Origin: Microscillaceae bacterium
GTDB taxonomy: Bacteria > Bacteroidota > Bacteroidia > Cytophagales > Microscillaceae
Reading direction: 5' to 3'
Length of the DNA stretch: 60,529 nt
Assembly (NCBI GenBank): GCA_011390205.1
Contig: JAABSX010000022.1
Location: 1 to 60,529, forward strand
Below, in pieces: positions 2,681-60,529 of the stretch. A program made the translations under genes and the position numbers. Numbering within the stretch: the first letter of the stretch is position 1; each line of letters opens with the position of its first letter. A model generated the notes under the pieces. That model searched no databases. It was not told the DNA's origin and worked only from the letters and a program-made list of their open reading frames with translations.

Positions 2681-2796
2681 TGTATTTTTTTTGGTTTGTT
2701 GGTTTTATTTTTTTGCAAAATTTAGCGTAAAATCTGGTATTGCCAAATAATAAGTGATTTTTGTTTAAAAATTTAGTAACAGGATGGTTTTTTGGC

Positions 2797-4044
2797 TTAT
2801 TTTTTTTCTAATTGGGTGAGTTTACTTTCTATTTCTGCCAATTTCTCACTCATTTTGAGACGTTTGTAGATTTGTGCGAGGCTTTTCAAGACGATGACAT
2901 TGCTGGCATCAAGTGTATAAAGTTTTTCGAAGTGTATTTTGCTATCCTGAAAAAAGCCATCGGCTTGTTTTTCTATTTTATCTCCTACTTTTTGATATTC
3001 TGTGAATGTGAGTTTATCTATTTCTTTGAGTTTTTTGATTCCTTGGTTGTAATAAATCCCTGCTGTATTGTAGATGGCTGTAAAGTTAGAGGGGTCTAAT
3101 CGGATACACTGCTCGTAATTGTCTAGGGCTTCGTATGTTTTTTCGAGTCTTTGATAGACGATGGCAAGGTTAAAGTAATTATTAGGGTCGGAGGGGCTGG
3201 CTTTTACCCGTGCTTTTGCATCATTGAGTAGTTTTTCATCATTTGTGCCGAGAGCCTCTTGCAGAGCGATGCGTGCCTCGAGAAATTTTTCATCATTGGG
3301 GAAGTCTTGGAGGGCAAGGTCTAAGACCAGAAGTGTTTCTTTAGTATCATTGATGACATCTCTGCAAGTAGCGATGAGGTTTTCGTAGTGTTCATATTTA
3401 ATTTTCGGATTGTCTAAGATTCTTATGAGGTCTTTTACAGTCTGGATATAATTGGGGTAATCTTGGCTCAGGAATGCAGCATAGGCGGCTATGCTGTGGG
3501 CAAGGGTATCTTTTGCATCAAGTTTTTTGGCGAGTTGTGCAGTTCGAAAAGCGATTTTATACATGCTGTTGGTTTGCAGGTCTTTGGAAGCCCCGATTTC
3601 TCTGGTCATTTTGTAAGCTTTTTTGTAGTATTTTCCTGCGATGTTGAGGGCAGTACTTTGCAAGCTATCAAGCCCTATTTTGCTGCTATCTGTGTAGCTA
3701 TTTTGCACATCTTTCATCTGAATGACTTCTTGATAGGCTTGGTAAGCTTTAAAAAGTGCGATGGTATCTTGCCCTGAGAAAGTGCCTCTGATATCACTGG
3801 CGATGAAGGCATAGGTTTTGGCTTTTAAGAATCCAATCTCTGTCTGCTGTTTGGGGTCATTTGTTTCATTTTCTTGGAGTAGCTCCAGTACTTGTCTGGC
3901 GGCTTCATAGCGTTGCTCATTGATGGCGATGTAGGCATCTTGTAGTGTTTGTGCCTGCAGGTGATTATATTGGAAAGAGAACAAGATTCCAAAAAAGACA
4001 AAAAGAAGATGTATCTGGAAAAATTTCATAGAGTTTATTTTCAT
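2797..4044 (-). CDS. exported tetratricopeptide-repeat protein
   Basis: The 415-residue protein has an N-terminal signal peptide (hydrophobic segment ending near QAQ, residues 30-32), so it should be periplasmic. The rest is helical with TPR-like units; the clearest is SDPNNYFNLAIVYQRL followed by YEALDNYEQCIRLDP and FTAIYNTAGIYYNQG. TPR proteins act as protein-binding scaffolds; no partner can be inferred. The first ATG is at 4042-4044; an internal ATG five codons later gives an equally good signal peptide. Its C-terminal half resembles that of the next gene upstream (4205-5395): both share an 'FEKLY...LAQIY' layout after a charged linker. The two probably arose by tandem duplication. Confidence 0.85.
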   Translation of the reverse strand: MKINSMKFFQIHLLFVFFGILFSFQYNHLQAQTLQDAYIAINEQRYEAARQVLELLQENETNDPKQQTEIGFLKAKTYAFIASDIRGTFSGQDTIALFKAYQAYQEVIQMKDVQNSYTDSSKIGLDSLQSTALNIAGKYYKKAYKMTREIGASKDLQTNSMYKIAFRTAQLAKKLDAKDTLAHSIAAYAAFLSQDYPNYIQTVKDLIRILDNPKIKYEHYENLIATCRDVINDTKETLLVLDLALQDFPNDEKFLEARIALQEALGTNDEKLLNDAKARVKASPSDPNNYFNLAIVYQRLEKTYEALDNYEQCIRLDPSNFTAIYNTAGIYYNQGIKKLKEIDKLTFTEYQKVGDKIEKQADGFFQDSKIHFEKLYTLDASNVIVLKSLAQIYKRLKMSEKLAEIESKLTQLEKK

Positions 4045-4151
4045 GGAAAAACGTGCAAAAGAGCTTGATTTGGATATATAAGGATAGGCTTGTGGTTATT
4101 TTATATTTTATCTATCTTTATTTTATTTACCAATATTTCATTTCACAAAAA

Positions 4152-4181
4152 AAAAGCCAAGTCTGCAAGGACTTGGCTTTT
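4152..4181 (-). terminator. intrinsic terminator after the 4205-5395 TPR gene
   Basis: A perfect 12-bp inverted repeat (4152-4163 with 4170-4181) has a 6-nt loop. On the minus strand it is followed by a run of T (plus-strand A at 4147-4155). It separates the two TPR genes transcriptionally. Confidence 0.75.
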
Positions 4182-4204
4182 GTTGGGGAGACGCTTCTTG
4201 AATA

Positions 4205-5395
4205 CTACTCATCAAGAGACTCTAGCTCATCAGTTAGTTTTTCAGCTGTTTTTGTATCTCCTGTGATTCTGTAAATCTGGGCAAGGGGTCCGATTACTCT
4301 TGCTGTCTTGCCTTCGGGCATTTTGTATAATTTTTCAAAATAAGGGAGTGCTTTTTTAAATTCTACGGCAGCTTTTTCTTCTACGGCAGCTCCTTTTTTG
4401 TTGTATTCATCTAGGGTCATTTGATCCACTTCTTTTTTGATTTCTACGGCTTTGTTAAAGAACAGTGCCCCTGAGTTAAACAGTGCATCATAGTTAGGCA
4501 GGATGGCATTGCTTTTATCATAATAAGAGAGAGCTGTTTCATTGTCTCCTTTTTTCTCATAAAGCACCCCTAGGTTAAAGTTAAAAAGAGATTTGTCTTC
4601 ATCAGTAGTAGCATTGCTTAGGCTTTGCTCTATCCCTGTGATGGCTTCATCTACTTTGTTAAGGTCAAGATACAACTGTAGGGCGATGGACTGCATTTGC
4701 TTGTAAGACTCAGGGTCAGTGTTTGGGTCTAGTTTTAGTCCTTTTTCTGCGATTTCGAGTGATTTTTCTTTGTCTTCTTTTTCTTTCAAGAGGTAAAAAG
4801 AATAAAGCATAAAATAGCGAGTTTTGCCCTCAAAATTCATTTCTAAGGCTTTCGTAACAGACTTTTCAAAGTCTTCAAAGCGTTCTTGGCCGTAGGCAAG
4901 GTCGGCAGCATACATAAAGGGGATAGTATCCTGTGGGTTGGTAGTCTGGGCAATCAAAAAAGCATCTAATGCCCCGCCGAGGTCATCGGCTTGGTATCTT
5001 CCTACACCATAGTTAATGACGATTGGGTGGATACCAGCAAGCTCCTGTTCAGCATTTTTGTAGATGCCTCCTTTTTTGTCTTTTTCTTTGTCATAGTCTA
5101 GCTCTTTGGCTTTGGCAAAAGACTCCATGGCAATGTTAATAGGGTCATCGGAGAGCGAGGAGTAAACACCTGTTTGGTCTGCTGCGATTCTGGAATAGAT
5201 CTGCCCTCTGACCAGCCATGTTTTGGCTTTTGAAACAGCTTTTTCATCCTTGATGGCTTCGTCTATTTTTTCTTTTGCCTTGTCAAGTGTACCCGCATCC
5301 ATAGCAAGCACGGCTGCACCTACTTGTGCAAATGTATGGGTATGTGCTGCAGCCAGTAGAAAGGTTGCCAATAATAGTAATTTTATTGTCTTCAT
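4205..5395 (-). CDS. exported tetratricopeptide-repeat protein
   Basis: The 396-residue protein has a clear signal peptide (LLLLATFLLAAAHTHTFAQ) and a helical body with repeated ~34-residue units, including LDAFLIAQTTNPQDTIPFMYAADLA-like blocks and a canonical TPR (LFNFNLGVLYEKKGDNETAL then YYDKSNAILP). It should act in the periplasm as a protein-interaction scaffold. The start is ATG 5393-5395, just before the signal peptide. It is related to the downstream gene 2797-4044, but a strong terminator lies between them. No catalytic motif is seen. Confidence 0.87.
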   Translation of the reverse strand: MKTIKLLLLATFLLAAAHTHTFAQVGAAVLAMDAGTLDKAKEKIDEAIKDEKAVSKAKTWLVRGQIYSRIAADQTGVYSSLSDDPINIAMESFAKAKELDYDKEKDKKGGIYKNAEQELAGIHPIVINYGVGRYQADDLGGALDAFLIAQTTNPQDTIPFMYAADLAYGQERFEDFEKSVTKALEMNFEGKTRYFMLYSFYLLKEKEDKEKSLEIAEKGLKLDPNTDPESYKQMQSIALQLYLDLNKVDEAITGIEQSLSNATTDEDKSLFNFNLGVLYEKKGDNETALSYYDKSNAILPNYDALFNSGALFFNKAVEIKKEVDQMTLDEYNKKGAAVEEKAAVEFKKALPYFEKLYKMPEGKTARVIGPLAQIYRITGDTKTAEKLTDELESLDE

Positions 5396-58331: not shown

Positions 58332-58515
58332 GGCTGGGGAATCCGTCCTAAAAGTCTGTTGTGATGAATTTGATTTAGAGGGATCTTTGATTCTTCCTTC
58401 GGAGCTTCCCTTTTCCGAAGCTGGAGCTTCGTGCTACAAATGAACCTTGTTCGCTATGGAAAAATACAAATCTTCTGCTCCTGAGTCGAGAGTGCAAATG
58501 CCGACTAAGCATTAC

Positions 58516-58635
58516 GCCCTTTTTTCACGCCTTCAGATTCCTGCGGAATGACAAATACGACGTTGTCATTCTGTAAGAATCCGCTGTACTGCGTAGCCTT
58601 TTTTCACACCTTCAGATTCCTACGGAATGACAAAT
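58516..58635. repeat. cluster of TGTCATTCCG-type repeats
   Basis: Two ~40-bp direct copies (58516-58556 and 58596-58635) have a third, inverted and diverged copy at about 58563-58585 between them. The first and third can pair. Confidence 0.75.
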
Positions 58636-58676
58636 CTTTAATACTGCCCGAGCCAGAGGCTCAGGCTACTTTAGGG

Positions 58677-58748
58677 AAAATTCTTTCTCACATCGCTTTT
58701 TGGGTGCTGCGTCCCTTGCACCCTCCAAGCGATGCCAGAAAGAATTTT
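58677..58748. repeat. 72-bp nested inverted repeat
   Basis: Three nested stems: a perfect 12 bp (58677-58688 with 58737-58748), 8 bp (58691-58698 with 58727-58734) and 6 bp (58702-58707 with 58718-58723). It lies 47 bp past the stop of the LRR-SUMF1 gene and may be a terminator or cruciform. Confidence 0.85.
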
Positions 58749-58795
58749 TATATCTTAGCTCAAATGATGTAACGAAATGAAACAAGCAAAGCAAA

Positions 58796-60529
58796 CTATA
58801 GAGAACAAACAAGGCGAAAGCCGAAGCTGCTGTTACGGCGGTCTGGTGCGTCGTAGTCGCGAAAAGCCACACGACAGTAAGCGGCGTAGTCGCTCCAAGA
58901 GCCACCGCGCAAAACACGGAACGAGGCCCGATGATTATCTATCCAAGCAGCACCATCACTAGGAACTCCCTCATAGTTGTTATGCCAATCATCTTCGCAC
59001 CATTCCCATACATTACCACTCATGTCATATAAGCCTAACTCATTGGGCTTTAGTAATCCTACAGGCTGCGTCTTGTCGTTTGAGTTTTCTTCATACCAAG
59101 CCACTTCGTTTATGTCATTACTCCCTGCATATTCATAGTCTTGGCTTTTTTGTCTACCTTTTGCAGCATATTCCCATTGGGCTTCAGAGGATAGGCGAAA
59201 CAGCCCCCTGCCTCCCGAAGGGAGAAGTTCCTTGAGTTTTTTTATAAAGGTTTGTGCATCATTCCAACTTACCATTTCTACTGGGTTTTGTGGGTTTCCT
59301 TTAAAATGAGAGGGATTCTTACCCATCACAGCCCCATAAAGTTCCTGCGTTACAGGGTATTTTGCCATATAAAAACTCTCTAAGGTAATTTGTGTGGGGG
59401 GTTGCTCGCTTTTATTCCCCTTGGCAGAACCTATGGTAAATGTGCCCCCCTCTACCCATATCATCTCAAAGGATACGCCGTTGATGGTTTGGGTGAAGTT
59501 TTTAGATGTTTCGGGTTCAGGGGTAAATTGTTGGAATTTTTGGGTTTGTTGTTGGCTTTCTTGCTGTTGGGAAGTTTGTTGAGTGAGTGGTTGTGGGGTT
59601 TGCTGTTGTGATTGTGCTAAGTAGTTTTTTACACTTTCCAAACAATTCCCATCAAAATCGAAGACTTCTTTGGGTAGGTTTTCTATGGGGTTGCCTTGTA
59701 GGTAGAGTTCTTTGAGGTTGGGGAGTTTATCTAGTAAGTCTGTAGGGAAATGGGTGATTTGGTTGTCCTCTAGACGTAGTATTTCAACATAAGTGATATC
59801 GTATTTTTCAAGTACTTCAGTCGTTAAATCTACAATTCCCTGATTGGATAAGTCTAGGATTGAATTTTTTGCCTGAATTTTTTGATTTATTTTACCATCC
59901 CTAATGATTCTTTCAATAATTATGAGCGGTTCATTATTTTCAAGCCATTCATCACTGATGGCAAAATTATTTCTTGAAAGCCTTAGTCCTTTATTATCCC
60001 ATTTTTTGGTTTCATTAGAACTCAATTGTAAACTGAGAAATGATTCAGGCAGACTTGTAAGTTTATTTCCACTTACATCTAGAAATCTCAAAGATGATAA
60101 ATATCCTAATTCTTCAGGGAGATATTCTAGTTGATTATCTTCAACCCCAAGTACCCTCAATCCTTTTAGATTTCCGATTCTTGGTGAGATAGTGATGAGT
60201 TGATTATTTGTTAAAAATAATCGTCTCAAATCCTCCAATTCAAATAAAGCATCAGGCAATGTTTTAAGTCCTCGCCCTCTCAAGTCTAGCTCTCTTTGTC
60301 CAGAATTACTAGCTTGCGTAATAAGCTCTAAGGCTTCAAGGTAGTTTTGTATATCTTCTAAACAATTCCCCTCAAAATCAAATACTTCTTCAGGCAAATT
60401 CTTAATCGGATTGCCATACAATTGAATCTCATTGAGATTGGATAGTTTATCCAGTAATTCAAGAGGAAAATAAGTGATTTTATTTTCTTGCAGGTACAGT
60501 CTAGCGATATGTGTATAGTCGAAAATGGG
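58796..60529 (-). CDS. leucine-rich-repeat protein with SUMF1-type C-terminal domain, 5' truncated
   Basis: The reading frame is open through the window end, so the start is missing; about 577 residues are present. The visible N-terminal part holds leucine-rich repeats (LRRLFLTNNQLITISPRIGNL-type units), with two copies of a block ending NLPxEVFDFxGNCLE. A Gln/Thr/Pro-rich linker follows, then a formylglycine-generating-enzyme-like (SUMF1) domain: MIWVEGGTFTIGSAKGN, MAKYPVTQELYGAVMG, LSSEAQWEYAAKG, MSGNVWEWCEDDW and RVLRGGSW. The C-terminal ~38 codons are GC-rich (see the next entry). The domain could be a catalytic or a C-type-lectin-like binding module; LRRs suggest ligand binding. Confidence 0.9.
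   Translation of the reverse strand, partial: PIFDYTHIARLYLQENKITYFPLELLDKLSNLNEIQLYGNPIKNLPEEVFDFEGNCLEDIQNYLEALELITQASNSGQRELDLRGRGLKTLPDALFELEDLRRLFLTNNQLITISPRIGNLKGLRVLGVEDNQLEYLPEELGYLSSLRFLDVSGNKLTSLPESFLSLQLSSNETKKWDNKGLRLSRNNFAISDEWLENNEPLIIIERIIRDGKINQKIQAKNSILDLSNQGIVDLTTEVLEKYDITYVEILRLEDNQITHFPTDLLDKLPNLKELYLQGNPIENLPKEVFDFDGNCLESVKNYLAQSQQQTPQPLTQQTSQQQESQQQTQKFQQFTPEPETSKNFTQTINGVSFEMIWVEGGTFTIGSAKGNKSEQPPTQITLESFYMAKYPVTQELYGAVMGKNPSHFKGNPQNPVEMVSWNDAQTFIKKLKELLPSGGRGLFRLSSEAQWEYAAKGRQKSQDYEYAGSNDINEVAWYEENSNDKTQPVGLLKPNELGLYDMSGNVWEWCEDDWHNNYEGVPSDGAAWIDNHRASFRVLRGGSWSDYAAYCRVAFRDYDAPDRRNSSFGFRLVCSL
58815..58928 (-). other. candidate variable region of the SUMF1 domain
   Basis: This 114-bp 3' segment is about 61% GC, well above the rest of the gene. 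Between the conserved RGGSW and GFRL motifs thirteen residues use NNC codons (AGC, GAC, TAC, GCC, AAC and TTC). That is the pattern left when template AAC codons are mutated in diversity-generating retroelements. No template repeat or reverse transcriptase is in the window. Confidence 0.45.
59630..60496. repeat. diverged LRR-encoding direct repeat, 720 bp apart
   Basis: The segments 59630-59776 and 60350-60496 encode related LRR blocks and share runs such as AACAATTCCC at 59641 and 60361. They are imperfect and lie in the same gene. Confidence 0.7.

Follow-up and report, generated by a model that had tools for sequence, protein, structure and literature searches.

The C-terminal end of an LRR-SUMF1 gene at the edge of contig C39 is probably the variable repeat (VR) of a diversity-generating retroelement (DGR) target, written from another, diverged template repeat (TR) that is lost or unassembled, and the flank behind it seems to preserve the target-side component of a bipartite recognition system. 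The window, that is, the whole stretch of DNA analysed, is contig C39 at its full length of 60,529 bp, from a genome of 4.51 Mb in 124 contigs. In related, mostly Bacteroidota DGRs a stretch that ends some 30 nt past the VR recurs, as its reverse complement, in the 14-20 nt immediately 3' of the TR, and this flank complementarity is a more interesting result than the orphan status of the window gene.

The LRR-SUMF1 gene and the codon signature of its tail

The features of the window gene and of its 3' flank are:

58796-60529, minus strand: LRR-SUMF1 open reading frame (ORF), 577 codons present, open at the contig end with its 5' end beyond the contig
59675-60529 (approximate bounds), minus strand: leucine-rich repeat (LRR) part, matched by PF13855, PF12799 and other LRR models
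58808-59467, minus strand: SUMF1/FGE-sulfatase domain, residues 355-574 (PF03781, E 7.7e-51)
58796-58918, minus strand: VR, from RVLRGGSW to the stop codon, with the NNC signature; second in the genome, after the TR on contig C5, as a match to a TR-like peptide
58758-58775, minus strand: target-side stretch TCGTTACATCATTTGAGC, whose end lies 38 nt past the stop codon; in related systems the corresponding stretch is complementary to the TR 3' flank
58677-58748, minus strand: hairpin 3' of the VR, DNA fold of -25.3 kcal/mol (z -8.56; 0/200 shuffles)

The initial annotation had described a GC-rich tail on an AT-rich gene, set between the conserved motifs of a SUMF1 fold and preceded by LRRs, and this description is borne out. 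Positions 58815-58928 are 61% G+C (70/114) in a gene with 38% GC upstream of the tail, RVLRGGSW and GFRL of the Pfam FGE-sulfatase/SUMF1 domain flank the segment, and the Pfam LRR models match upstream of that domain. The best bounds of the VR proper are 58796-58918, and the last 40 residues of the ORF are RVLRGGSWSDYAAYCRVAFRDYDAPDRRNSSFGFRLVCSL. A C-terminal VR within a SUMF1 domain, as PF03781 places it here, is the arrangement expected of DGR targets.

Thirteen exposed NNC codons had also been claimed; the signature is real, with a corrected count of 12/13, the exception being GCA. NNC codons occupy 12/13 exposed columns compared to 7/23 other columns (Fisher p = 0.00038), and the codon use of the gene itself predicts 3.56 of 13 (P(>=12) = 1.1e-6), for a 13-column set that was picked after viewing the sequence. 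A 10-column set fixed by the C5 TR, comprising the columns that are strictly AAC or AAT there, gives 9/10 NNC in the window (P = 3.9e-5). The tail thus has the exposed codons of AAC-template type that are expected of DGR targets. When 41 gene tails and 3 TRs from the source genome and relatives are tabulated (44 rows), the third-position C excess of the window tail over its own gene is the joint highest, tied with a tail from genome G019. Elsewhere in the source genome, NNC is rich in the SUMF1 tails on contigs C43 (9/13) and C4 (10/13), with contrasting tails on C80 (5/13) and C48 (3/13).

The DGR on contig C5 and the search for a template

One DGR was found in the genome, on the 5,721-bp contig C5, with the following parts:

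1075-2169: SUMF1 target
2264-2710: HRDC protein (PF00570, E 2.5e-13)
2694-3698: reverse transcriptase (RT), with motifs GNLTSQ and YMDD
3709-3825: TR, RVFRGGSWLNFATYCRVAYRNNNNPANRNNNNGFRLSL

The motifs GNLTSQ and YMDD are what we take to be the marks of a DGR RT. The only matches to PF00078 in the genome are on C45 and C5; there is therefore no RT on the window contig, in line with the annotation's remark that none is adjacent. The C5 locus has the core of a DGR, an RT beside a TR and a VR that differs from it at TR adenines, with 12 of the 16 differences in 108 nt between TR and cis VR falling at TR adenines (p = 5.6e-7). The four non-adenine differences that are left are all in the 5' part, which suggests drift there. 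It also has the two characters of the HRDC-type clade, an HRDC accessory protein and a TR downstream of the RT; the HRDC domain was assigned by Pfam in C5, and the HRDC-like tails of related loci were judged by eye. A caspase-like gene (Peptidase_C14) lies downstream of the TR at 3998-5194 of the same contig.

Comparison of the window VR to the C5 TR over 108 nt reveals 32 differences, 14 at the 23 TR adenines and 18 at the 85 other positions, an enrichment at adenines (p = 0.00044). Eight constant codons differ synonymously between the two, and the ends after GFRL also differ. The window VR is thus not identical to the C5 TR outside the TR adenines, as a DGR target strictly defined would be, and since 18/85 non-adenine positions differ, the C5 TR in its present form is not the writer of the window segment. 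A search of the genome for a cognate TR by DNA similarity returned, besides the segment itself, only the C5 cis VR and three short matches at chance level; among seven matches to a TR-like peptide in the genome, a TR was present only at C5. The reading of the segment as a DGR variable region therefore survives in part: the segment is DGR-like, and elsewhere in the genome C5 carries a DGR RT accompanied by an HRDC protein, a TR and a cis target. The near copy with adenine-only differences that the annotation had looked to was not found, as the C5 TR, the sole TR detected, carries the 18 non-adenine differences.

Three other accounts of the tail bear on this result. It is improbable that the segment is an ordinary SUMF1 tail, in which the RGGSW...GFRL motif coincides with local GC-rich codon use and no retroelement takes part. 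The motif does occur in the signature-free SUMF1 tails of C80 and C48, and the same 3' motif and hairpin stand in some flanks of genes lacking the signature, for example that of C80; but compositional chance does not account well for NNC in all but one of the exposed codons (P = 1.1e-6) while the constant codons are mixed, nor for a C excess that is joint highest in the table, and a DGR is present in the genome. Even less probable is that the C5 DGR now drives the window target in trans with its own TR. An RT and a TR in the same genome, the adenine enrichment of the differences and a 3' motif common to the C5 and window targets would all fit such an arrangement, yet the 18 non-adenine differences, including the synonymous changes in constant codons, the different 3' end and a flank pairing of 12/18 argue against it. 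With NNC kept at the exposed codons and the constant codons diverged, the simplest reading is therefore a different, missing template. That this template is not lost, and that the target is active, its cognate TR, and perhaps a second RT, lying in an unassembled part of the genome, is a real possibility, although we lean slightly away from it. The assembly is a draft in 124 contigs (96.86% complete), C5 is 5.7 kb long and the window gene is cut by the end of its contig, which suggests that repeats break the assembly here, and the exposed codons have kept their NNC form; on the other side, the NNC-rich tails of C43 and C4 are also without a matching TR and such tails occur in relatives in which no C5-type RT was detected, both of which fit loss of the core.

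The window gene is thus most likely an orphan (remote) DGR target in this assembly, its writer TR being lost or unassembled, and targets of this kind are already known. Leftover targets of lost DGR types are described in Treponema denticola (PMC4891356) and trans-driven DGR targets in Thiohalocapsa (PMC10907252). In G013, a relative of the same family, TR and VR are on different contigs and 14/14 differences between them fall at TR adenines; on contig C129 of that genome an LRR gene with a stretch that by eye resembles a Roc GTPase (L017, 1-1059) adjoins a DGR RT. No second genome of the same genus was among the relatives searched for comparison.

Raised third-position C was also seen in the SUMF1 tails L204 (G006, contig C127), L205 (G014, C81), L213 (G009, C77) and L233 (G019, C28), each with TGAGC in its 3' flank. 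A C5-type RT query against genomes G006, G014, G009 and G019 found nothing at E <= 0.001, so that orphan targets are perhaps common. On contig C80 (L012), TTTTGAGC and a hairpin with the loop AAGGGACGCAGC lie 3' of the SUMF1 gene, which is perhaps a decayed or never used target.

Complementary flanks of template and variable repeats

The flank of the window VR carries TTTGAGC plus a hairpin and is of the kind seen in related DGRs, and the hairpin found 3' of the VR in DGR targets is thus present here. TTTGAGCTAAGANATAAA occurs with zero mismatches at two sites in the genome, starting at +24 after the stop codon of the C5 cis target and at +32 after that of the window gene. The VR-side stretch of C5, GCCATTCTTTGAGCTA, is the exact reverse complement of the C5 TR border plus flank, and the same relation between VR flank and TR flank, in other letters, is seen in G013 and G004. 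Between the C5 TR flank and the window flank there are 12/18 pairs, mostly in the common TTTGAGC core. Hairpin folding behind four targets gave z values of -8.56 in the window, -4.35 in C5, -6.30 in G013 and only -0.80 in G009. The loop AAGGGACGCAGC was considered as a dispersed repeat and set aside, with only four occurrences in 15 genomes: two in the source genome and one in G009, all behind SUMF1 genes, and one in G018. An Rfam search of 58400-59100 returned a single match, mir-234, at 20 bits compared to a gathering score of 58, and was likewise discounted. Further behind the target gene, two near copies of GTCATTCCG(C/T)AGGAATCTGAAGG were noted by eye on the minus strand at 58527-58640.

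Relatives of the RT were taken from genome contigs, viral contigs and genomes of the class, and TR/VR pairs were detected by adenine-specific mismatch, with the G013 pair identified by its sequence. The near group was defined by an RT identity of at least about 44%, with G004, whose RT is known from a 50-residue fragment only, and G013 (56%) added as family members. In a 50-row RT tree, 20/21 near rows fall in one group (97/95), while L132 pairs with the distant L136. The far group comprises 11 systems, ten with the TR downstream of the RT and one (L138) with the TR upstream. Four loci were dropped before the counts, L121 because its TR is cut by the contig end and L123, L132 and L277 because no pair was found, and in L127 a microsatellite match was set aside in favour of another TR/VR pair. 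A scan of viral contigs for further near-clade members yielded none above about 41% RT identity among the kept loci (80, 1 and 80); viral loci were therefore used as a contrast group, in which removal of repeated systems reduced 68 pairs to 59, 58 of them with the TR upstream. With the RT as query, no match in plasmids or phages reached 60% identity.

In a first pass, flank complementarity exceeded the 99th percentile of mismatched pairs in 11/35 systems with the TR downstream of the RT, compared to 4/108 with the TR upstream. The idea of pairing was formed after this pass and before the genomes yielding L278-L281 were retrieved; all four of these later TR/VR pairs fit the complementarity, and a fifth genome (L277) gave no pair. 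Across the 18 near systems, the best ungapped match of the VR 3' flank to the reverse-complemented TR 3' flank averaged 14.64 for own partners and 7.51 for mismatched ones, the own partner being the row maximum in 16/18, and 0/20,000 permutations reached the own mean. The 5' flanks of the same systems, used as a control, gave the row maximum in 0/18, with 13,863/20,000 permutations. When the comparison was fixed to the TR border and mismatched partners were given the same maximisation as true ones, true partners had 14.33/18 Watson-Crick pairs and mismatched partners 9.75 (0/100,000 permutations). Within columns 6-14, at least 7/9 pairs are formed in 13/17 systems compared to 2/272 mismatched cells, the latter not re-maximised, and six of these nine columns use all four Watson-Crick types; L133 was excluded from this count and included in the unanchored and anchored tests. 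The letters therefore vary between systems while the pairing is kept. It is strong in 13/18 near systems and weak or unanchored in five, namely L127, L128, L129, L135 and L133, in which the anchor rule failed.

Outside the near group the signal fades. The 11 more distant systems retain only a trace (8.18 compared to 7.13; 182/20,000), and the 58 further viral pairs with the TR upstream of the RT have no flank complementarity (7.12 compared to 7.07). Direct-orientation similarity of the 3' flanks is also raised in the near group (10.94 compared to 7.12; 23/20,000; row maximum in 3/18), which probably reflects VR/TR homology left in the flank windows of L278 and L280. Beyond the pairing stretch, CGGAT(A/G) or TGGATG and, further on, TGAAC were noted by eye in many TR 3' flanks of near systems, and these may belong to a conserved, structured portion of the template RNA.

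The position of the complementary stretches bears on what they are. The pairing starts at the TR border, with AG|CTYA in 16/18 systems, and on the target side it ends 28-35 nt after the VR in 11/18 systems and 38 nt after it in the window. Instead of serving recognition, the stretches might be the inverted repeats at the ends of a mobile HRDC-RT-TR cassette, or might belong to a terminator or to antisense control; we consider this unlikely. In cis systems the two stretches do bracket the HRDC gene, the RT and the TR, and hairpins follow them, both of which would suit such readings. The stretch is, however, also present behind VRs that do not bracket the core, which is evidence against terminal repeats of a cassette: it is found behind the three VRs of L124 (16/18 pairs each), L279 at 3240 (17), L126 at 15207 (14), a VR of G004 (16) and the trans VR of G013 (17). 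The regular spacing after the VR and the start of pairing at the TR border likewise argue against such repeats and for a role in recognition of the target.

The pairing rule predicts the flanks of missing templates, and the TR of the window gene is predicted to be followed by GCTCAAATGATGTAACG. A search with this predicted flank found, in the source genome, only the window site itself; in other genomes it gave matches at 1-2 mismatches, and a reversed control gave the same order of matches.

A proposed mechanism and its relation to known systems

For the window gene, we propose that the exposed loop residues were written from AAC-type TR codons by adenine-specific, error-prone reverse transcription, the writer having been not the C5 TR in its present form but a different, diverged TR that would now be lost or unassembled. 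In the HRDC-type clade, the target half of recognition would be a stretch ending in TGAGC followed by a hairpin; its partner in complete systems would be the RNA that adjoins the TR on the 3' side, whose sequence is the reverse complement of the target stretch. The TR RNA would then base-pair with the sense strand of the target behind the VR, and this pairing might tether the RNA-cDNA complex at the target or supply the RT with a 3' end that is extended straight into the TR. From the covariation of the flanks we infer that pairing occurs; the nucleic acid that acts as partner, and the choice between priming and tethering, are likewise put forward from sequence. More tentatively, and with some reserve, we suggest that direct base-pairing is how a clade of chromosomal DGRs, most of them from Bacteroidota, locates its targets: a guide or primer-binding site of 14-20 nt immediately 3' of the TR would co-evolve with a site behind each cis or remote target, and the sense strand of the target (DNA nicked at the hairpin foot, or mRNA) would prime the mutagenic cDNA. 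As a sequence rule, the covarying pairing of TR and VR flanks helps to assign genes to templates within a genome.

According to a 2026 paper (PMC12875486), the route by which mutagenised DGR cDNA locates and enters its target is incompletely understood. No account of TR/VR flank complementarity was met in the open-access literature, as covered in part in PMC3240598, PMC4891356, PMC10907252, PMC12875486, PMC3521204, PMC8144416, PMC4372165, PMC7159879 and PMC8867640; novelty is not established. The closest described systems are the HRDC-type DGRs with SUMF1-like targets of Treponema denticola (Wu et al., 2016; PMC4891356), which share an HRDC accessory gene that overlaps that of the RT, together with remote targets and leftover targets of lost DGR types; in the main text of that paper the words hairpin, inverted and complementary are absent. 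Four spirochaete loci are among our distant ones, and the three with a TR/VR pair (L137, L138 and L141) have no flank complementarity.

The BPP-1 DGR of a Bordetella phage shares adenine mutagenesis and a hairpin 3' of the VR that is needed for efficient homing, and differs in having Avd instead of HRDC and its TR upstream of the RT (PMC3240598, PMC12875486). The DGRs examined here that have the TR upstream lack the flank complementarity. The primer of BPP-1 cDNA is an adenine in the TR RNA spacer (PMC12875486); priming from the target would therefore be a departure from this system, while tethering would not.

A further likeness is to a prime-editing guide RNA. There, a primer-binding site complementary to the target strand directly follows the template RNA, and in the DGRs described here the order would be the same, a template RNA and then a target-complementary stretch, as read from sequence only. 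The two would differ in their product, as the strand made by extension would here be the complement of the VR itself, and it would need a further step, folding back or transfer. Should the stretch 3' of the TR serve as a primer-binding site, the DGRs of this clade would resemble in action a natural, adenine-mutating prime editor.
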